A stretch of DNA of 25,731 nt from a virus, in the IMG/VR virus record IMGVR_UViG_3300021354_000033, positions 1-25,731 of that record; one strand, given 5' to 3'. The notes beneath the pieces were generated by a model. The model was not told the DNA's origin and did no database searches. It was given only the letters and a program-made list of their open reading frames with translations. The translations under genes were made by a program, and so were the position numbers. Below are positions 14,353 through 22,132 of the stretch, piece by piece (position 1 is the stretch's first letter; every line of letters begins with the position of its first letter).

Positions 14353-15882
14353 TTAGCTCCCCATCCATGAGTTAAGGGCTGCGCTTTGCGACTGATACGT
14401 TTGTTTGCGAAGTATACCTTTAGATTCCCGATGTGCAACAGGAAATGCAAACGTCAGGGCGATGGCATCAGCCGAGTCAGGTGACGCCAAGCCTCTAGCT
14501 TTCATGTCTTTTTTGGACTCCAAGTAAATGGCGCCCTTAGAGTCAGGCTTCATCAATGGTGAGATCAGGTCAGTCTTAAGTGTTTTTTCCTTGGGGATGG
14601 ACGCGTTCTTAAGCCAATCCTTCATCTGCCCCCAAATCTGCGCTCTCATGTTGCCATACATCATAGGGTTGCGGCTCTTGTTCGCAAAGTTCACACCGCG
14701 TATCTTGTAGCGTTGTTCTTTGAGTCGGTCAACCACACCCGCGCCTAAGCCACCTTCGTCAATGGCTACGACTGCTGGGCTGTACTGCTCGATGGCTTCG
14801 ATGACATGACCGACCACTACCATCGTATCGTCACCCTTGAACTTACGGATCTCTACGATGTCCCTGCCCTGGCGCACCGCAATGACGGTCGAGTCCGAGC
14901 CAAACCGGGCAGGATCAACACCCATTACGATGGGCGCGGAGTCATCTTGCCATTTGTCCCGTTTCATTGCTTCGTCCACCAAGGTGGAGGAGATGAACTG
15001 ATCGTCGCCTTCCGATGGGAACGAACCATATACTTCAACGTGCGCCTGGTACGAATCAGGGCCGTATTCTTCAATGATCTGGTTATACACGTTCTTATCG
15101 GTACCTTCTACATCCCTAGCGTCCACTTGCCTAGATTGCCAAAAGTCACGCTTGCTACCCTCGATGGCTTCATAGAAGTAGCCTGTATTGCGACGCGGGT
15201 TAGAGAAACAACACCAAAAGCGGTTGGGCGTGTTCTCTGTAAAGAACCCGCTTGTCACCGCCCAGATGGAGTCGTCAATACCTGACGCCTCATCAAACAC
15301 GACCATTACCCCATCGTAGTTGTGAACACCGGCGAACGAATCAGGATTCTCAGCCGACCAAAGCCGCCCTTCTAAGTTCCAATAACGTGTGCCTTTCTTG
15401 AGGTCACGCTCGACTAGCTCAGTCAGCCATTTGGCAGGCATTACCCTTGTGGCGCTAATCTCCCACCAGTGGGTATTGATCGACATGGACGACCACTTAG
15501 TGATCTCAGCCCAAGTTACTGAGCGTAGTTGCGATTCGCTGTTGGCTGACACGATGACGGTCGACCCGATGCGGGTAGTCATCATCCACAGGACTAGCCA
15601 GGACACTAGGGCTGACTTACCAATACCACGCCCAGAGGCGATGGCTAATCTTAAGACGTCAAAGTCAACCTTGCCATTGTTTGTTTTGATGTGATCTGCC
15701 AAGTCTTGTAACACCTGGCGCTGCCACTTGCGTGGGCCAGTGAAGTGTTCAAGTGGCGTACCCGCTTGTCCCCAAGGAAACGCAAACATCACGAACGCTA
15801 GCGGGTTGTCCTTGATGCTTGGACTCCATAGCCGCGCCATAAGTTCCATTTCATCTTCGGCAGAATACCGTGGTTCTTGCAT
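14353..15882 (-). CDS. terL: Terminase large subunit (ATPase-nuclease)
   Basis: A 509-aa DNA-packaging motor protein. The ATPase domain shows a Walker A at residues 83-90 (SGRGIGKS), a coupling-like segment, and a Walker B at 192-198 (VMVVFDE). The nuclease domain follows with acidic residues at D323 (GVDPARFGSD), D375 (VVAIDEGG) and the SPDSADA segment (D469/D472), the usual three RNase H-like metal positions that cut concatemeric DNA. Length and order are close to P22 gp2 (499 aa). The start overlaps the terS stop by one base (TAATG), so the two subunits are translationally coupled. Headful (pac) packaging is likely by analogy with P22; the sequence itself does not prove it. Confidence 0.93.
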   Translation of the reverse strand: MQEPRYSAEDEMELMARLWSPSIKDNPLAFVMFAFPWGQAGTPLEHFTGPRKWQRQVLQDLADHIKTNNGKVDFDVLRLAIASGRGIGKSALVSWLVLWMMTTRIGSTVIVSANSESQLRSVTWAEITKWSSMSINTHWWEISATRVMPAKWLTELVERDLKKGTRYWNLEGRLWSAENPDSFAGVHNYDGVMVVFDEASGIDDSIWAVTSGFFTENTPNRFWCCFSNPRRNTGYFYEAIEGSKRDFWQSRQVDARDVEGTDKNVYNQIIEEYGPDSYQAHVEVYGSFPSEGDDQFISSTLVDEAMKRDKWQDDSAPIVMGVDPARFGSDSTVIAVRQGRDIVEIRKFKGDDTMVVVGHVIEAIEQYSPAVVAIDEGGLGAGVVDRLKEQRYKIRGVNFANKSRNPMMYGNMRAQIWGQMKDWLKNASIPKEKTLKTDLISPLMKPDSKGAIYLESKKDMKARGLASPDSADAIALTFAFPVAHRESKGILRKQTYQSQSAALNSWMGS

Positions 15883-16331
15883 TAGGCGGCTTTAAGTTTT
15901 TTAGTTGGTAGTTCTTTAAATTCTACGCTTTGAGGTTCACTAGCTGTGAGGGCGTCGATGACGCGAGATTGCGCTTGCTCGAGAGCAGCGGTGATTGAGA
16001 TGCGTTGTTCAACGTCGATGGATAGTTGCTGTTTGGCAACCCATCCGTGGACATTTTGCAAGATGGCAAGCGCTGCTTTGGCGTCGCCTTCTTTTGCAGC
16101 AAGATGCAATAGTTCGCTAGCTTCATATTCACCCTCGGCTCTGCCTGTTAATTCTGCCCATTCAGCGATGGGATCAAATTGCACTAACTGACGATATTCG
16201 GTGGGGAGCATACCGGCTGCTAACGCCAACGAATCTCCCTTAAGGCCGAGTTTGGCGGCTTTCTTGATTGCTTCAAGCCGTGACTCTGTAGCTTGCAGCT
16301 TACGAGGTTCATAAGGAAAGGATACAAACAT
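15882..16331 (-). CDS. terS: Terminase small subunit (probable)
   Basis: A 149-aa mainly helical protein directly before terL and coupled to it. The first half (residues ~14-60) has a helix-turn-helix-like order (ESRLEAIKKAAKLGLKGDSL, then ALAAGMLPTEYRQLV), fitting a DNA-binding domain that recognises the packaging site. The middle (EASELLHLAAKEGDAKAALA, then ILQNVHGW) and the QRISITAALEQAQSRVIDAL segment resemble other small terminase subunits, where they mediate ring formation. The ATG at 16331 has no good ribosome site (CTTCCCTC upstream), so it may be poorly translated or the true start may differ slightly. Assignment rests on position plus helical pattern. Confidence 0.82.
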   Translation of the reverse strand: MFVSFPYEPRKLQATESRLEAIKKAAKLGLKGDSLALAAGMLPTEYRQLVQFDPIAEWAELTGRAEGEYEASELLHLAAKEGDAKAALAILQNVHGWVAKQQLSIDVEQRISITAALEQAQSRVIDALTASEPQSVEFKELPTKKLKAA

Positions 16332-16647
16332 GAGGGAAGTGTAACAAAAAAATTTAAAAATAAAAAGGGAATGGGCGTTTGGCTACTAATAAAAAAATTG
16401 TTCGTGATACCTCCCCAGCCACAACAGTTTTGCGCAAGGCCCTAGGGGGGTGGGTAAACCCTAGGTAGCCCCTAGCTATAAGGCTTAGCGGGCGATAAAA
16501 AGCATAGAGCTATATAGAATAAGGGCTAGCGGGCGGGCGCGTATAGGGCGCGGCGGGCGTTTTCCCTTTTGCTTTTTTGGCTGGGCGCGTGGCTGCCAGG
16601 CGCCAGGGCGCGGCCATTGTTGCCGGTCAATTGTGGCAGCCGGGCGC

Positions 16648-16661
16648 GTGACCTAGGTCAC
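16648..16661. promoter_or_regulatory. Perfect 14-bp palindrome GTGACCTAGGTCAC
   Basis: A perfect inverted repeat whose half-site (GGTCA / TGACC) is also the first part of the neighbouring GGTCAAATTGTCA elements. This suggests one dimeric protein that binds both, such as a repressor or replication initiator. No matching regulator is identified in the window. Confidence 0.55.
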
Positions 16662-16678
16662 ATTGTCAAATTGTCATC
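16656..16678 (+). repeat. Iteron-like copy pair (degenerate plus overlapping copy)
   Basis: GGTCACATTGTC is followed by an overlapping GTCAAATTGTCATC, giving two phased copies of the TTGTC half separated by 9 bp. It joins the right side of the 14-bp palindrome. Confidence 0.6.
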
Positions 16679-16713
16679 AATATTTAACCGGCGGGCGCGT
16701 GGCCTTAAACATA

Positions 16714-16785
16714 GGTCAAATTGTCATCTAATAAAAGTAGGGTCAAATTGTCGTCTAATAAAAGTAGGGTCAAATTGTCATCTGT
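16714..16785 (+). repeat. 27-bp tandem iterons, about 2.6 copies
   Basis: The unit begins GGTCAAATTGTCATCTAATA and ends AAAGTAG. Copy 1 is 16714-16740, copy 2 is 16741-16767 with a single A-to-G change (TCGTC), and a partial third copy runs from 16768 (GGTCAAATTGTCATCTG). The exact tandem spacing of nearly identical units points to protein binding on one helix face (27 bp is about 2.5 turns) rather than coding. Confidence 0.85.
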
Positions 16786-16847
16786 ATTTTGTTGACGGCT
16801 TTTTCCTTTTTGCGTGGGAATTCCCGCAGCGGGCGCGGCAAAATCTA

Positions 16848-16869
16848 GGTCAAATTGTCAAATTGTCAT
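16848..16869 (+). repeat. Iteron-like copy pair
   Basis: GGTCAAATTGTC followed by an overlapping GTCAAATTGTCAT, the same 9-bp-phased double arrangement as at 16656-16678. Confidence 0.65.
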
Positions 16870-16950
16870 ATCGTTTTAGGTCGCTGCCTTATAACATTGG
16901 CCGCTATAGATATATAAATATGTGATTAACATCTCATAGGTATAAAAAAA

Positions 16951-16964
16951 TGACAATTTGACCC
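16951..16964 (-). repeat. Inverted copy of the GGTCAAATTGTCA element
   Basis: Reads TGACAATTTGACCC on the plus strand, the exact reverse complement of GGGTCAAATTGTCA. Flanking bases (CTACT to its right) also match the AGTAG flank of the tandem units in inverted sense. Confidence 0.65.
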
Positions 16965-17025
16965 TACTAAGCTTTAAACCCTTATTTTATAAGCCCCTAA
17001 TATAGGTCATTTAGACCCTAAACAA

Positions 17026-17059
17026 TGACCTAGGTTTTGACAATTTGACCTAGGTTTTG
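17026..17059. repeat. 20-bp-spaced direct repeat TGACCTAGGTTTTG with inverted iteron core between
   Basis: TGACCTAGGTTTTG occurs at 17026-17039 and again at 17046-17059, and TGACAATTTGACC (17038-17050, inverted iteron) bridges them. The 20-bp period is about two helical turns, suggesting cooperative binding just upstream of the rightward promoter. Confidence 0.65.
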
Positions 17060-17074
17060 CCGTTTTGTTGTTTT

Positions 17075-17097
17075 AATGTAAACAATTGTTTTACATT
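17075..17097. promoter_or_regulatory. Inverted repeat overlapping the rightward promoter (candidate operator)
   Basis: AATGTAAA and TTTACATT flank a CAATTGT centre, giving an almost perfect dyad (one extra T). It covers the proposed -35 box at 17090-17095, the classical place for a repressor operator. Confidence 0.55.
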
Positions 17098-17118
17098 CCT
17101 ATATTTTTGTGATAACCT
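17090..17118 (+). promoter_or_regulatory. Candidate sigma70 promoter for the plus-strand island
   Basis: TTTACA (17090-17095) is followed after 17 bp by TAACCT (17113-17118). The -35 box is good and the -10 box is weak. It lies about 55 bp before the first ATG of the island. Confidence 0.45.
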
Positions 17119-17171
17119 GGACGTCCCTTAGGGGAAAACAGAAAACTAAACTAAAGTAAAGGTAAAAAACC

Positions 17172-17435
17172 ATGCATATCAAATTAATTAAAGCTTTAAT
17201 TCAGCGCTTGCAAGATGTCGAAGGCGACAATCTCGAAGTGTCTTTATGCTGCTTATTGGATCAAGATTCTACAATTGACGCGCAGCTGCTAAACGAAATG
17301 TATTTATCTAATCAATTGCCCGGCGCTGGATCAATGCGCGACGTGGCCGATATTCGCGCCGTTCGATTAGGTTATGAAGGTATCGACGATTTACTAGCGT
17401 ATAGCCGCCGCGATTCAGTTATTTTTGAAGGTTAA
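17172..17435 (+). CDS. 87-aa acidic hypothetical protein, first gene of the island
   Basis: Starts MHIKLIKALIQRLQDVEGDN and ends RDSVIFEG. It has an N-terminal amphipathic helix followed by an acidic, Leu-rich body (LEVSLCCLLDQDST, DIRAVRLGYEGIDDLLA). There is no clear helix-turn-helix and no membrane segment. The leader CTAAAGTAAAGGTAAAAAAC gives an AAAGG ribosome site 10 bases before the ATG, and a close copy of this leader precedes the 74-aa gene at 19083. As the first gene behind the repeat-rich control region it is likely to be expressed early; an anti-host or regulatory role would be speculation. Confidence 0.68.
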   Translation: MHIKLIKALIQRLQDVEGDNLEVSLCCLLDQDSTIDAQLLNEMYLSNQLPGAGSMRDVADIRAVRLGYEGIDDLLAYSRRDSVIFEG

Positions 17436-17449
17436 ACGAAGCGCCCAGG

Positions 17450-17467
17450 CGCGGCAAACCCGCCGCG
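17450..17467. other. GC hairpin between island genes 1 and 2
   Basis: CGCGGC / GCCGCG with a 6-nt loop, 15 bp after the first island gene's stop. No T-run follows on either side, so it is not an intrinsic terminator; it may stabilise the upstream mRNA. It is preceded by GCGCCCAGGCGC, a near-palindrome that recurs in the island. Confidence 0.4.
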
Positions 17468-17497
17468 ACCTGTTAATAAACTAAAGGAAACTAAACG

Positions 17498-17608
17498 ATG
17501 TCTACTCTCACAAAAAAACCCGGTTTACTTGATTACCTGGGCGCCGCGATCATGGGCGCAATTCTAGGCGCCTTTTTGGCCTGGGGCCTTCTGAATGGGG
17601 GGTTTTAA
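17498..17608 (+). CDS. 36-aa single-pass membrane microprotein
   Basis: Translated by hand: MSTLTKKPGLLDYLG followed by a hydrophobic segment (residues ~14-33: GAAIMGAILGAFLAWGLL). Two lysines before the segment predict N-in orientation, and the Gly/Ala pattern (GxxxG-like) suggests helix packing or oligomer formation. A good ribosome site CTAAAGGAAACTAAACG precedes the ATG, and the next gene starts one base after the stop. It could be a small holin-like or superinfection-type membrane protein, but nothing in the sequence decides this. Confidence 0.62.
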   Translation: MSTLTKKPGLLDYLGAAIMGAILGAFLAWGLLNGGF

Positions 17609-17609
17609 A

Positions 17610-17858
17610 ATGAGCCAATTATCACAAATATTTGATATTGATTTTCCAGGCCGCCGCCCTTCTAAGGCGCAAATCTTAAGCAAGATTAAGGCCGCGATTC
17701 AATCCGGCGCCGCTGCAATATCTGTAAGCTGGGGCGAAAACCGGATAGACCTAGATTATTCATTTAATGCTAGATCCTGGAATGGCTGCGGCTGGATCCG
17801 CGCTATAGGCGGCGACGATATCGCCCAGGAATTAAACAACCAACAAAAAAGGGGTTAA
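17610..17858 (+). CDS. 82-aa hypothetical protein
   Basis: Starts MSQLSQIFDIDFPGRRPSKA and contains ILSKIKAAIQSGAAAISVSW and a later WNGCGWIRAIGGDDIAQELN. I chose the ATG at 17610 because a GGGGGG purine run lies seven bases upstream; an in-frame ATG at 17595 would add five residues but overlaps the microprotein gene. The KAAIQSGAAAISVSWGEN.I.L and GCGWIRAIGG.DIA.EL layout looks conserved and I vaguely recall similar phage proteins, without a function. It is a small alpha/beta protein with no membrane part. Confidence 0.7.
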   Translation: MSQLSQIFDIDFPGRRPSKAQILSKIKAAIQSGAAAISVSWGENRIDLDYSFNARSWNGCGWIRAIGGDDIAQELNNQQKRG

Positions 17859-17860
17859 TC

Positions 17861-18382
17861 ATGGCTTATATGAATCAGGAAAAGAAAAGCATTATCAAGG
17901 CCGCAATGGATAAGGCCCTAAAGGCCCGCGGGTTTAAGTATTCCCTGCGCGTTGATAATCATATGGCGATCGCCTGCACGATAAGCGCTGGCCCCGTTGA
18001 TCTAATCGCTAATTTTAGGGATAAGACCGGGAAAACTTTTGAGCTGCCGGGCCATGATAAGGGCCATATGCAGGTTAATCTCTACTGGCTAGAGGATCAC
18101 TATAGCGGCGAAGCGCTGCAGGTGCTGCAGGAATGCGCCCAGGCGCTTAAGGCCGCCGGATATTATGATCGCAGCGACGCAATGACGGATTATTTTGATA
18201 CGGCCTACTATATGCACCTAAATATTGGCGCCTGGGATAAGCCTTACAAAATCACGCCGCGCACAATGCGCCAGGCGGCCGCGGCCATGACAGAAGATGC
18301 CATCAAGGCCAAAATTCTAGAGCAGGGCTGCAGCGTTGATTTTCTTAATAATCGCGTCATTGTGAAGGTGATCAATTTATGA
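17861..18382 (+). CDS. 173-aa hypothetical protein
   Basis: Starts MAYMNQEKKSIIKAAMDKAL, two bases after the previous stop, with GGGG upstream. The order is an N-terminal helix, a beta strand pair (YSLRVDNHMAIACTISAGPV, DLIANF), a His-rich turn (LPGHDKGHMQVNLYWLEDHY), a helix, then DYFDTAYYMHLNIGAWDKPY (residues ~108-127), which is aromatic and Asp-rich. Histidines and acidic residues could bind metal, but no known active-site signature is seen. The stop overlaps the start of the Gp88-like gene (ATGA), so the two are translationally coupled and may act together. I do not recognise the family. Confidence 0.75.
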   Translation: MAYMNQEKKSIIKAAMDKALKARGFKYSLRVDNHMAIACTISAGPVDLIANFRDKTGKTFELPGHDKGHMQVNLYWLEDHYSGEALQVLQECAQALKAAGYYDRSDAMTDYFDTAYYMHLNIGAWDKPYKITPRTMRQAAAAMTEDAIKAKILEQGCSVDFLNNRVIVKVINL

Positions 18383-19068
18383 TTAATTACCATTTAACCC
18401 CAAAATCTAGCAATGTAAAAACCGGGCCAATACCAGTAAGCACAACCAGCGCAGCGACCTGCCCGCCTGACTGCCCATTCAATAATTCGCAGGGCTGCTA
18501 TGCTGGATCCGGCCCGCTGGCGTTGCACTGGGCCGCCGTAACCCGCGGCGATCGTGGCGACTGCTTCGCGGATTTTTGCGACAAAATCGCAGCGCTGCCG
18601 GATGATCAATTATGGCGCCATAATCAGGCGGGCGATCTGCCAGGCAATGGCCTAGAGATTGACGGCGCAGCCCTGGGCGATCTAGTGAAGGCAAATAAAG
18701 GCCGCCGCGGCTTTACTTATACGCACTACAACCCGGCAAACGGCAGGAATAGCGCCTATATCAAGGGCGCGAATGACTGGGGGTTTACGATCAATTTAAG
18801 CGCGAACACGCCAGCCCATGCGGATCAATTGGCAGCCCTTAACCTGGGGCCGGTCGTTACGGTTTTACCTATTGATCAAAAAGAAAACACGACGACGCCA
18901 GGCGGCCGGAAAATTGTAGTATGCCCGGCAACCATTCGCGACGGGATCAGCTGCGCGAGCTGCAAATTATGCGCGATTAGTAACCGGGACGCTATTATCG
19001 GATTCCCGGCGCATGGTACCCAGGCCAAGAAAGCGGCGCGGGTTTTTAATATTCAATCGATAAATTAA
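18379..19068 (+). CDS. 229-aa Cys-rich protein resembling phage Gp88 / DUF7227 group
   Basis: The N-terminus has KTGPIPVSTTS followed by a cysteine cluster CPPDCPFNNSQGCYA (C28, C32, C40) and LALHWAAVTRGDRGDCFADF (C62, C67). The C-terminus has a second cluster: VCPATIRDGISCASCKLCA (C182, C192, C195, C198) and then GFPAHGT with a KKA helix. The two-cluster layout and the final F-x-x-HG-x-x-KK resemble, from memory, mycobacteriophage Gp88-type proteins and a group catalogued as DUF7227, found in phages and plasmids; the biochemical role is unknown to me. The spacing suggests zinc or an iron-sulfur cluster. It is the largest gene of the plus-strand island and is coupled to the 173-aa gene. Confidence 0.75.
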   Translation: MINYHLTPKSSNVKTGPIPVSTTSAATCPPDCPFNNSQGCYAGSGPLALHWAAVTRGDRGDCFADFCDKIAALPDDQLWRHNQAGDLPGNGLEIDGAALGDLVKANKGRRGFTYTHYNPANGRNSAYIKGANDWGFTINLSANTPAHADQLAALNLGPVVTVLPIDQKENTTTPGGRKIVVCPATIRDGISCASCKLCAISNRDAIIGFPAHGTQAKKAARVFNIQSIN

Positions 19069-19082
19069 AGTAAAGGCAAAAA

Positions 19083-19307
19083 ATGAACTATTCTACAAGT
19101 GATTTACAAGTATTGGCCCAGGTGCTGGACGATAACCGCGCATTTAATCAGGGCCTAATAAGGCAAACCCTGGAAACCCGCTTAACTACCGCGGATATGT
19201 ACTTGCATAATGCTGCGCTTAATGCGCGGGACAATGACGGGCGCAGCGCCTGGCATGATATCAACCAGGCGCGCAACGTAATTAATCAAATATTAGGGGG
19301 CCTGTAA
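19083..19307 (+). CDS. 74-aa helical hypothetical protein
   Basis: Starts MNYSTSDLQVLAQVLDDNRA and is entirely helical by pattern (LIRQTLETRLTTADMYLHNA, WHDINQARNVINQILGGL), probably two or three short helices. The leader TAAAGTAAAGGCAAAAA is almost the same as that of the first island gene. Its TAA overlaps the next ATG (TAATG). No family recognised. Confidence 0.68.
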   Translation: MNYSTSDLQVLAQVLDDNRAFNQGLIRQTLETRLTTADMYLHNAALNARDNDGRSAWHDINQARNVINQILGGL

Positions 19308-19441
19308 TGTATCGCGTAACCTATACAACCTATTTAAGCGGCATAGAATCGCAGGCCTGCCGCCGCTTTAATACGCGGGCGGCTGCCGTTACTTTTGCCC
19401 GCTTAGTACGCGGCGAAATAGAGAAGGGGCCGCGCTTATGA
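19307..19441 (+). CDS. 44-aa basic hypothetical protein
   Basis: Translated by hand: it starts MYRVTYTTYLSGIESQACRR, then FNTRAAAVTFARLVRGEIEK and ends GPRL. It has one beta hairpin-like start followed by a helix with several arginines (net positive). The start is coupled to the 74-aa gene by a TAATG overlap and the stop overlaps the next start by ATGA, which supports its being a real gene. The strand-strand-helix order resembles small single-domain phage proteins, with no function evident. Confidence 0.6.
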   Translation: MYRVTYTTYLSGIESQACRRFNTRAAAVTFARLVRGEIEKGPRL

Positions 19442-19500
19442 TCCCTATAATATGCGGCCTGCTGCTGGCCCTACTAATAGCGGAAATATTTGATTTATAA
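19438..19500 (+). CDS. 20-aa hydrophobic membrane microprotein (candidate)
   Basis: MIPIICGLLLALLIAEIFDL is a single hydrophobic helix of about 15 residues with an acidic end. It is coupled by an ATGA overlap to the preceding gene and ends 19 bp before a strong terminator, so it closes the operon neatly. The length alone gives little proof of translation. Confidence 0.45.
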   Translation: MIPIICGLLLALLIAEIFDL

Positions 19501-19519
19501 ACCCGCTACAATTAACGCG

Positions 19520-19542
19520 CCCGGCTATATGCCGGGTTTTTT
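19520..19542 (+). terminator. Strong intrinsic terminator of the plus-strand island
   Basis: A 6-bp all-GC stem CCCGGC / GCCGGG with loop TATAT is followed by TTTTTTATT. No T-run follows on the minus strand, so it acts for rightward transcription only. Confidence 0.88.
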
Positions 19543-19767
19543 ATTGCCCGCGCCCAGAGGGCCATAAAAGCGCCCAGGCGCTGCGATTGTTTGCCCTGCT
19601 GGCTTAGTATTACCCGCGCCGCAATCGCGCGCCCTGGGCTATTCTGGCCGCCGTAAAGCGCGCGCGCCCGCTGCCGCCCTGGCTTACGCGCGCGCCTGCG
19701 CGCCCATGCGCCCGCCCGCGTACGCGCCCGCGCGTATGACTCGCCGATTATGATTTTGTTTTAATTC
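19543..19767. other. GC-rich intergenic spacer with alternating CG tracts
   Basis: 225 bp between two convergent transcription units. No coding sequence longer than about 15 codons with a plausible start was found. It is packed with GCGCGCGCC, ACGCGCGCGCC, TGCGCGCCC and similar alternating purine-pyrimidine runs, mostly between 19660 and 19735, plus a copy of GCGCCCAGGCGC at 19570-19581. Such tracts can form Z-DNA or stable RNA hairpins. No terminator for the leftward replication operon could be identified in it. Confidence 0.6.
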
Positions 19768-19831
19768 TTGCAGGCAAACGATCCCGTTTTTTGCAGGGCA
19801 ACGATCCCGATTTTTGCAGGACAACGCTCTC
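19768..19831. repeat. 23-bp tandem repeat, about 2.8 copies, abutting the primase-helicase stop
   Basis: Units TTGCAGG-x-x-AACGATCCCG-x-TTT at 19768-19790 and 19791-19813, and a partial, diverged unit at 19814-19831 (TTGCAGGACAACGCTCTC). The third unit ends at the base before the stop codon of the primase-helicase gene on the minus strand. Spacing is exact at 23 bp. Confidence 0.8.
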
Positions 19832-22132
19832 TTATTTCACACGCACAAGATGTGGCGATGGATTTTCTTCTACTGCACGTCGAAGCTCTGATTTTTTAAA
19901 AGTTTCATGCACATCAGGCGCAGCGAAGATATGCTTCTTACTTGGGTAATCGTGCGACGCTAAGCGGCCACAATCAATCCATCCGGCTTCCTTCAGTGCA
20001 TGAAGTAGCGCAGCCTGTGGCACCTTAACACCCGATGGTGCCAATCCAGCCAAGCGATCACATAGGCTATGAAATGGTGAACCAATTACACCTTTAATAA
20101 ACTCACCCTTACGCTCACGCAGCATATCCACTAAATAGCTCTCAGCCATACTCATGCCATGCTCGATTAGATTTTGCTTAAACTCGGTCATTATTGGAGG
20201 CGCGCTAGGGTTAAATTTAGATACATCACGAGCCATAAGCCATTTTGCTATGCAGGCAAACCCTCCCGATCTATACCAATCCCAAATCTTTTTAGCTTGA
20301 TCACTGTTCATTCTTGGTGCGGTAGACCACACACAGAACCAACGGCGATCTTGTGATGCCAGGCTAATAGGCACAGGATCATTACTAAATGCCAGCACAA
20401 ACAGGCGGTTTGCCATCATATAAGGATGCAGGCCTTTACGATTAATAGGCAACATCTCAGGCGGCGCAGCAATAATAGGTTTGAGTTGGTTAGCTAATTG
20501 TCTGCGCGTTGCAGCGTCAGGCTCTTTTAATTCGTTGATGATCAACACTTCTGACTCTAATTGATAACCCCACTGGCTATTCACAGAATTGTTATCCATG
20601 ATGCCGCGGTTTTTTAAATGATCGCCGCAGACGGCCCAGATGAACGGCGCCCAAAAAGTATCCTTGCCTGAACCTTCATCCCCTGCATGAAGGATCGCAT
20701 GATTAACTTTGATTTTAGGGTTTTGTACTTTGAACGCCATCACATCAAAGATATGATCTAGTTCTGCTTGCTCAGGCACAAGCTCCTGGCAATGCTTCAT
20801 CCACATAGCGATGTCATTACTTGCACCTGATAGCTCAGGTCTTGCGTCACGCCAGCGGTTACCGAACAGGTCGCCATCACGCATGACAATAACATCTTCA
20901 CCGGCAGCGTAGGTCACACCAACAAGCGCTTTGGCGCCCATCACTTGACGATTCTCATCAAAGCAAATAGATGCCTCGACTTTGCGTCCTGTGTGAATCG
21001 ACTTACAAGGGATGTGACGGAACAAAGCGTTGAACGTCTGGCGACTCACCTCACGTCGGTCTTGCATATCAAAGTAAGACTCATCGTCTTGTATATACGC
21101 AAAACGGGAATACCACTCAGCTTTCTCGATGCGCCCTAGTTCTTTGCGCTCAACTTCAGCAATTAGCTCGGACGCCGTATCGCGGTAAATATCATTAGGC
21201 GTTAGCTTAGACAAGGTATCTTTCATTTTCTCCGCTAGCAACTCATCACGCAAGCCATGCGATACAGTCGGGCCACCATTATCCGCTACCCAAGCTAAAA
21301 ACATCTGCGAACTAAAATCCACGCAATGACCATGCAAGCAACAAAACGAACGATCTAAGGGTTTATACCGACCTTCAATGTTGCCATCGGTATGCTCTGC
21401 GTTGTTAGGGCAAACGATACTCATCCAACCCTCACCATTGGCAGCAGACATGATTAGCCCTTGCTCGTTAAGCCAAGTAACGACTGAATCCTTGCCGGTG
21501 TCAGCAAGGCGAATGGCGACATTCTGCGCTGTATCAGCAGGGTCAGGCACCACATCAAGGGCAGTGCAGATTTCTTCTAATAGATACTCACGCTCAGGGT
21601 GAAACTCTACCAAGACCGACGCAAAGTTGCCGCGCCCTGGCTTAAGATTAATTGAACCAGGCAGACGGAAGTTACGCACTGCGTTAGTAGCGCCAGGGTC
21701 GGTGTAGCCTGCCGTAGCAATCGCTTTGATGGCTGCGGTAAAGTCGCCCTTAGTTGGTTGCTCTTTAAATGCGTAGCCCCATTGAAAGGAACCTTCGGAC
21801 GTTTCCATAATCCAAGTAGGCACAAGCGGTGGCTCTTTAGACTTAGTGCCGATGTCATCTAACATCATCACAAGGACGTATTCGCAGTTGGCGCTGGACG
21901 CTGATACTTTGCCATCAGCAAAGCGATCAAGAATAAATGAGCCTGTATTGCCGTAGATTGCCCAATCCTTCTTGACCTTAGCAGTTGGCAAGAACGCAGG
22001 CCAAGTGCATTTAATCGTGCCATCGGCATGGGCTTGCATTTGCCCGTTACCATCTAACTGTGGTTTTTGACGCACAACGAGGGCTGTTTCACCTACAGGT
22101 GCTAGGTTCGTGATATATTCTACAAAGTTCAT
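19832..22132 (-). CDS. Primase-helicase (RepB/PrimPol-like plus NrS-1-type helicase)
   Basis: A 766-aa replication protein. Residues ~80-180 look like a PrimPol/RepB-type primase core: VMMLDDIGTK with D92/D93 as probable metal ligands, then WIMETSEGSFQWGY and AVRNFRLPGSINLKPG. Residues 241-270 form a zinc-binding candidate (C241, H247, C264, C265, H267, C270). The C-terminal helicase part has Walker A GDEGSGKD (484-491), Walker B-like EVLIINEL (528-535) and a SQDRRWF arginine segment (593-599), as in the NrS-1 polymerase-like (DUF5906) superfamily 3 helicases. It should unwind DNA and make primers for the polymerase encoded upstream in the same operon. AAAGG precedes the ATG. Confidence 0.85.
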   Translation of the reverse strand: MNFVEYITNLAPVGETALVVRQKPQLDGNGQMQAHADGTIKCTWPAFLPTAKVKKDWAIYGNTGSFILDRFADGKVSASSANCEYVLVMMLDDIGTKSKEPPLVPTWIMETSEGSFQWGYAFKEQPTKGDFTAAIKAIATAGYTDPGATNAVRNFRLPGSINLKPGRGNFASVLVEFHPEREYLLEEICTALDVVPDPADTAQNVAIRLADTGKDSVVTWLNEQGLIMSAANGEGWMSIVCPNNAEHTDGNIEGRYKPLDRSFCCLHGHCVDFSSQMFLAWVADNGGPTVSHGLRDELLAEKMKDTLSKLTPNDIYRDTASELIAEVERKELGRIEKAEWYSRFAYIQDDESYFDMQDRREVSRQTFNALFRHIPCKSIHTGRKVEASICFDENRQVMGAKALVGVTYAAGEDVIVMRDGDLFGNRWRDARPELSGASNDIAMWMKHCQELVPEQAELDHIFDVMAFKVQNPKIKVNHAILHAGDEGSGKDTFWAPFIWAVCGDHLKNRGIMDNNSVNSQWGYQLESEVLIINELKEPDAATRRQLANQLKPIIAAPPEMLPINRKGLHPYMMANRLFVLAFSNDPVPISLASQDRRWFCVWSTAPRMNSDQAKKIWDWYRSGGFACIAKWLMARDVSKFNPSAPPIMTEFKQNLIEHGMSMAESYLVDMLRERKGEFIKGVIGSPFHSLCDRLAGLAPSGVKVPQAALLHALKEAGWIDCGRLASHDYPSKKHIFAAPDVHETFKKSELRRAVEENPSPHLVRVK

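Follow-up and report, generated by a model that had tools for sequence, protein, structure and literature searches.

The island and its control region

The DNA analysed here (the window) is a 25.7 kb virus record (IMG/VR record IMGVR_UViG_3300021354_000033, positions 1 to 25731), and all positions are those of the whole stretch. It was found to represent a P22-like podovirus, encoding a P22-type portal (Pfam PF16510, E value 1.4e-170) and coat protein (PF11651, E value 1.8e-41). Eight small plus-strand genes, here called the island, are located between the terminase and primase genes (Table 1), and every other annotatable gene of the window is on the minus strand. An initial annotation had described this gene set, its tight coupling through ATGA and TAATG overlaps, a control region and a terminator, and all of these were found, the control region as a noncoding stretch 5' of the island filled with repeats (iterons) and the likely terminator as a hairpin and T-run at 19519–19537. 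The island is likely to be a resident accessory operon of the P22-like family, with the region in front of it a replication origin that is read by the tip of the phage primase-helicase.

The control region contains nine 13 bp iterons with at most one mismatch, and none was found elsewhere in the window at up to two mismatches. The seven forward copies start at 16656, 16664, 16714, 16741, 16768, 16848 and 16856, and the last 11 bases of the AT-rich core overlap the first of the two reversed copies. Relatives were gathered from viral contigs using the DUF7227, TerL, 173 amino acid (aa) and 82 aa proteins as queries; nearly all are metagenomic contigs, and the 72 distinct loci counted are those spanning both the terminase side and the primase. 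Their control regions have the same position and layout, and the repeat sequence varies among them (TGTGGACAA, TTGGGTCATT, TGTTAGTCATG, TGTGGGTCA, TGACGTGCA and others). When iteron classes were defined through counts of chosen 7–9-mers and the counting orientation of each class was fixed from the left side, class-matched iterons in 67 relatives were 281 forward versus 52 reversed to the left of the AT-rich core, and 115 reversed versus 35 forward to its right. This layout is a direct observation, and opposed iterons flanking an AT-rich core characterise the origins used by self-loading helicase initiators. Judged from its sequence, the control region is most likely a replication origin rather than a promoter only.

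Two further elements were seen in control regions. A second repeat type (CACTAAC/AAGTTAGTG) lies beside the variable iterons in the L035 clade (loci L035 and L351–L395) and in L049, L051 and L055; it is constant whatever the primase patch described below, and may bind a second or host factor. A GGCCCTA-CC/GG-rich element at about 16430–16460, just upstream of TerS, is retained in most relatives while the iterons vary, and is possibly a packaging site.

Table 1. Coordinates of the island, the control region and adjoining features of the window
Feature	Position	Strand	Remarks
Putative terminase small subunit (TerS)	15882–16331	-	adjoins iteron array
Control region, most likely replication origin and rightward island promoter region	16332–17171	.	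noncoding, TerS to first island gene
Left iterons, seven forward copies of GGTCAAATTGTCA	16656–16868	+	0–1 mismatch
AT-rich core, 60 bp, candidate DNA-unwinding element	16902–16961	.	GC 0.23
Right iterons, two reversed copies, TGACAATTTGACC (16951–16963, 17038–17050)	16951–17050	-	exact
Island gene 1, 87 aa	17172–17435	+	no family match
Island gene 2, 36 aa, hydrophobic microprotein	17498–17608	+	several relatives, 56–97% identity
Island gene 3, 82 aa	17610–17858	+	no family match; 13 viral-contig relatives
Island gene 4, 173 aa	17861–18382	+	phrog_10415 over residues 1–132, plus additional C-terminal part
Island gene 5, 229 aa	18379–19068	+	DUF7227 (PF23872); seven invariant cysteines; Gp88-like predicted fold
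Island gene 6, 74 aa	19083–19307	+	retained in close relatives
Island gene 7, 44 aa	19307–19441	+	present also in islands without DUF7227
Island gene 8, 20 aa, hydrophobic microprotein MIPIICGLLLALLIAEIFDL	19438–19500	+	read from sequence
Hairpin GCCCGGCTATATGCCGGG then T-run, likely island terminator	19519–19543	+	
Primase-helicase, 766 aa, proposed initiator	19832–22132	-	RepB_primase-like N-terminus, DUF5906 helicase middle, C-terminal domain
Codons of primase residues 724–733 (LASHDYPSKK), patch co-varying with iterons	19934–19963	-	

Co-variation of the primase-helicase tip with the iterons

The RepB_primase match of the primase-helicase falls slightly below the cut-off and the DUF5906 match above it, and the helicase region resembles the phage primase 6k9c/6k9e (E value 3e-4). 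Iteron similarity between phages was compared with protein identity in windows along the primase, TerS and TerL, with TerL identity removed. Primase residues 721–760 were found to follow iteron similarity (r 0.56), against r 0.05–0.22 for residues 1–400 and 0.02–0.04 for TerS, which lies beside the array. In a residue-by-residue comparison, the strongest single positions include 724, 725 and 727–730. In this first (training) set, the patch retained a partial r of 0.55 with the rest of the C-terminal domain held constant (reached in 0 of 999 permutations), and the rest of the domain a partial r of 0.07 with the patch held constant. The partial r between island gene content and iteron similarity was only 0.08, and linkage through the island therefore does not explain the coupling of patch and iterons. 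TerS and the island gene products were each considered as iteron binders and rejected, as neither co-varies with the iterons.

The statistical coupling can be seen directly in the pairing of patch and repeat. LASHDYP, the patch of the window, pairs with GGTCAAATTGTCA throughout the six loci of that class, [LIV]KSRE[FY]D with TGTGGACAA, VASGDFQ with TTGGGTCA, LM[SA]R[DN]Y with AGTCATG and INTREHAT with TGACGTGCA. A difference of one residue also has its counterpart, KSREFDTK being found with TGTGGACAA and KSREFDTR with TGTGGGCAA, though the KSREFDTR group is one clade.

Natural swaps of patch and array were found in closely related phages. L046 and L048 carry INTREHAT and an iteron with TGACGTGCA, whereas L033, L035 and L047 carry LKSREYDA/V and the iteron TGTGGACA. 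Where full length exists, the primases of this set are 98–99% identical outside the patch, and the patch is 33% identical. L047/L035 differ from L048/L348 at 47 fixed nucleotide positions in about 2.3 kb, and 10 of these lie within a single 23-base stretch over the patch. The control-region framework of the two types can be aligned (for example, in the ATAACTTTTT and AGCCAAAA segments), and the iterons have been replaced in place.

The predictive value of the patch was assessed in an independent set of 104 loci from two further primase scans, with control regions absent from the first set. The rules were fixed on the first set, and an array was callable if it held at least three iteron cores of a class. 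The 57 rule-based predictions comprised 39 right, two wrong and 16 without a callable array; 39 of 41 callable predictions right compares with a chance mean of 24.1, and none of 9999 permutations reached 39. All nine callable predictions outside the commonest class were right, and the patch kept a partial r of 0.44 (0 of 999 permutations).

Several points weigh against so simple a relationship. The rest of the C-terminal domain keeps a partial r of 0.37 in the independent set, and the patch is therefore not the sole part that follows the iterons. Thirty of the 39 right predictions belong to one class, TGTGGACA, 16 of the 57 were unscorable because no class reached three iteron cores, and two (L292 and L386) failed. 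The loci share ancestry, so that permutation counts overstate independence, and the iteron cores were picked after inspection of the training set. The primase C-terminal domain could be matched to no solved structure and no Pfam family, and to call it a winged helix would be a reading of its sequence pattern only. With these points taken into account, we still favour, with some reserve, the view that about nine C-terminal residues of the primase-helicase constitute a readable and swappable address code for the origin, in which patch and whole array switch together in place, 3 kb apart, and the type of array can be predicted from the protein.

Other explanations of the repeats have to be set against this. 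The repeats could be a packaging (pac/cos) site bound by TerS, as the array is upstream of TerS, the gene for which starts directly beside it, and as P22 and other phages have small terminase subunits with binding sites within or close to the gene that encodes them. However, TerS shows next to no partial correlation with iteron type, L004 has a TerS 89% identical to that of the window yet different iterons, and L001, L099 and L105 have the iterons of the window with a TerS that falls to about 40% in its last third, making a packaging site a most improbable reading. It is scarcely more probable that the repeats are operators of a regulator controlling the island promoter, as in phage immunity regions. 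The array is indeed just upstream of the island, and a gene in the same position in DSL-LC05 is annotated as 'repressor protein C', but no island gene family tracks iteron type, the six loci with the iteron class of the window have no regulator-like gene in common, and the forward and reverse layout about an AT-rich core together with the coupling to the primase are features of an origin. The primase could possibly act as both origin binder and repressor.

The correlation of patch and iterons might also arise from linkage alone, if origin, island and primase 3' end were inherited as blocks, and both the distance of the primase 3' end from the array (about 3 kb) and the increase in correlation toward that end are consistent with this. 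However, TerS adjoins the array and shows no correlation, the island genes between array and primase are freely shuffled, the signal is in about nine residues and not in their neighbours (training set), and in the swap set the patch differs within otherwise near-identical proteins. Linkage alone is thus very unlikely, and an origin read by the primase tip is the interpretation followed below.

A conserved slot with exchanged contents

In all 72 distinct relatives, small plus-strand genes occupy an opposite-strand slot between TerS (or TerL) and the primase. Both the conservation of this slot and the turnover of its genes were observed directly. In 18 relatives TerL is at least 91% identical, and yet their gene content differs, the slot being occupied by DUF7227, a sliding-clamp-like protein (DNA_pol3_beta_2, E value 5e-8), an amidoligase/glutamine amidotransferase-like pair or unrelated genes; exchange of contents is seen even where the terminases of two phages are 95% identical. 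A cytosine-methylase-like gene was found in the slot of more distant relatives. The frequency of DUF7227 among the relatives is inflated, as DUF7227 served as one query. These phages are a family of lakes and seas that carries a swap-prone accessory cluster.

The sliding-clamp-like protein is a slot protein of ~215 aa in L091, L095, L099, L102, L112, L115 and L037, matches the central domain of the DNA polymerase III sliding clamp, and is encoded immediately beside the putative origin. In L097 (about 2.9–5.3 kb) and L111 (about 9.4–11.8 kb; both numbered in the island orientation), a pair resembling an amidoligase and a class II glutamine amidotransferase replaces DUF7227. Annotated slots are present in L082 (GenBank accession number MW202483; coordinates 30041–31018) and L083 (OR003940; coordinates 36014–36325), and the slots of annotated relatives contain either a cytosine methyltransferase or DUF7227 and a gene named repressor protein C. 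DSL-LC05 retains the slot despite replication genes of another type.

The initial annotation had proposed a transferred module, in which the 82, 173 and 229 aa genes and two membrane microproteins moved as a block with a role in host takeover or counter-defence, and co-occurrence of the three genes in unrelated genomes was to support it. In its favour, the 173 aa gene is directly 5' of DUF7227 in the close relatives L003, L004, L005, L169 and L171, and DUF7227 has very small genes as neighbours in PAK_P1 and lies close to the start of CRP-345. However, outside this phage backbone the 173 aa gene was found with DUF7227 within the fetched flanks in none of 72 loci, and the 82 aa gene was beside DUF7227 in only two of 11 (L059 and L256), while in near-identical phages DUF7227 is replaced by other genes in the same slot. 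A fixed three-gene unit is rejected on these counts and the block proposal is largely refuted, leaving it little probability. The module stands as a location, with a fixed slot, gene turnover and no palindrome avoidance (below), and not as a unit. The separation of the 173 aa gene and DUF7227 outside the family and the turnover of slot content argue that the island would be a hotspot and not a cassette. A search using PADLOC, the library of which covers defence and not anti-defence models, found no defence-model match, and a takeover or counter-defence role would be conjectural.

The island had also been described as richer in GC than AT-richer flanks, and this was rejected on the GC content of the window genes and the 72 relatives. 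Island GC is 0.500, compared with 0.512 for the terminase genes on the left and about 0.48–0.50 for the primase and polymerase on the right (polymerase 0.497), and the third-position GC of TerL (0.60) equals the highest value in the island. In 68 of the 72 relatives the island has a lower GC content than its flanks, with four higher and a mean difference of 0.049 lower. Base use is unusual in its words and not through GC richness. Palindromes of 4 bp are avoided in the core, where eight blocks of island size have observed/expected ratios of 0.67–0.90, but the island shows no such avoidance (1.11), and the island ratio exceeds that of a size-matched flank in 60 of 65 relatives (Wilcoxon p about 1e-10, a value that takes no account of shared ancestry). 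Codon usage of the island correlates with that of the core at r 0.67 versus a median of 0.85 for equal-sized core blocks, 6 of 93 overlapping blocks scoring as low as the island. The palindrome contrast suggests that island genes may be too recent or too mobile for restriction-type sites to have been purged. The island is a slot for gene exchange beside a putative origin, free of the palindrome avoidance seen in the remaining genome.

The 229 aa protein belongs to DUF7227 (PF23872; residues 3–223, E value 7.5e-92, 307.4 bits against a cut-off of 27), a family found in 186 records of other phages, mostly Pseudomonas phages. An alignment of 41 sequences revealed invariant cysteines at 28, 32, 40, 182, 192, 195 and 198, and further invariant residues H81, N82, D86, H116 and H212. 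The likeness to Gp88 noted in the initial annotation was borne out by the predicted fold and not by sequence. The AlphaFold2 model (pLDDT 95) resembles Gp88 and Gp37/Gp68-like families among viral models (best Gp88-family model, E value 5.6e-5, TM score 0.64), whereas Pfam gives DUF7227 alone, with Gp88 (PF17338) not among the matches at E values up to 1. Four phage records, including two or more with DUF7227 (CRP-345, which is L084, and P26059A, which is L086), likewise gave no match to the PF17338 model. Against the PDB, the 229 aa model gave weak TIM-barrel-like matches only (TM score about 0.2–0.35). The two cysteine groups would fit a radical-SAM-like Fe-S enzyme, and our guess is a metal- or Fe-S-binding enzyme. 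A search of the open literature yielded no paper on DUF7227 and no usable one on PAK_P1 expression timing.

The 173 aa protein matches phrog_10415 (E value 2.3e-33), a function-unknown family that occurs in large unrelated phages, and its model (pLDDT 82, moderate) has no PDB match with an E value below 1. Relatives in Sinorhizobium phages phiN3, phiM7 and phiM19 are annotated as molecular chaperone DnaJ; no DnaJ match was found for the 173 aa protein of the window, and the phage annotation may be wrong. A counterpart of the 20 aa gene is located 3' of the 44 aa gene in L001, L003, L004, L005, L099 and L104. The stretch includes five terminator-like sites versus 5.9 expected from shuffles, and so is not enriched in them. 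The spacer from the island terminator to the primase (19540–19740) is very GC-rich, of low complexity and rich in GCGC and CGCG, and three tandem 23 bp repeats (TTTTTGCAGGACAACGATCCCGA-like) at 19765–19833 overlap the primase gene 3' end. Searches of the window for RNA families and tRNAs found none.

Proposed initiation and comparison with known systems

In the proposed scheme, the C-terminal tip of the primase-helicase would read the iterons via residues ~724–732, and we infer that it binds them directly. One protein set would assemble on the forward iterons and another on the reversed iterons, flanking the AT-rich core, which would then melt and allow two forks to start. The origin and the 3' end of the initiator gene would flank the island, with transcription of the island running away from the origin and expression probably early in infection.

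As initiator and origin must match, a change in origin specificity without death of the replicon is an old puzzle. The family offers a dozen or so natural matched pairs, some in near-identical backgrounds, that involve about nine residues and 8–13 bp, and suggests that phages may be selected to change origin identity. As speculation, such a change might protect against cross-replication, satellites or the kind of origin-directed nuclease described for PLE (PMC8263062).

The initiators of SaPI and SCCmec elements provide the closest parallel. The C-terminal domains of SaPI Rep and SCCmec Cch2 are reported to bind the cognate origin, and SaPI Rep appears to bind as two hexamers (PMC7581432). Like these initiators of the primase/helicase type, the window primase has both domains in one protein, and like the SaPI Rep origin its iterons are found on either side of an AT-rich region, seven forward on the left and two reversed on the right. 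Unlike that arrangement, the window has an opposite-strand island of ~2.3 kb that separates the putative origin from the initiator gene, so that the one does not directly follow the other, and the family has a dozen or so iteron classes that track about nine residues. By analogy, the best explanation is that the window primase tip would work like the SaPI Rep and Cch2 C-terminal domains.

In phage P4, the alpha protein is a primase-helicase that binds ori via its C-terminal domain. According to the P4 annotation, ori and crr contain 8 bp type 1 repeats that run in both directions, and these resemble the iterons here, though P4 needs both ori and crr whereas a single array is seen in the window. 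Homology between P4 alpha and the window primase was rejected, as BLASTP (E value 1.1) and hhalign (probability 0.7%) detected no similarity.

Co-variation of initiator and origin is already known from two other systems. In Vibrio cholerae PLE, the DNA-binding part of RepA co-varies with the origin against a conserved remainder of the protein, and initiator and origin have to be cognate (PMC8263062). However, PLE is a satellite in which the whole RepA_N domain is swapped and the iterons are semi-palindromic and ~30 bp long, whereas the family described here consists of phages with a patch of about nine residues and iterons of 8–13 bp. In geminivirus Rep, a short variable amino acid stretch correlates with iteron sequence (reviewed in PMC10653810), but this is an unrelated rolling-circle protein and the stretch is N-terminal, whereas the patch is C-terminal. 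Searches of open papers, with most subscription journals outside their coverage, found no description of patch-iteron coupling. What is new here is that the co-variation involves a small C-terminal patch, extends over many classes, includes swaps in place and can be used for prediction, in a family of tailed phages.

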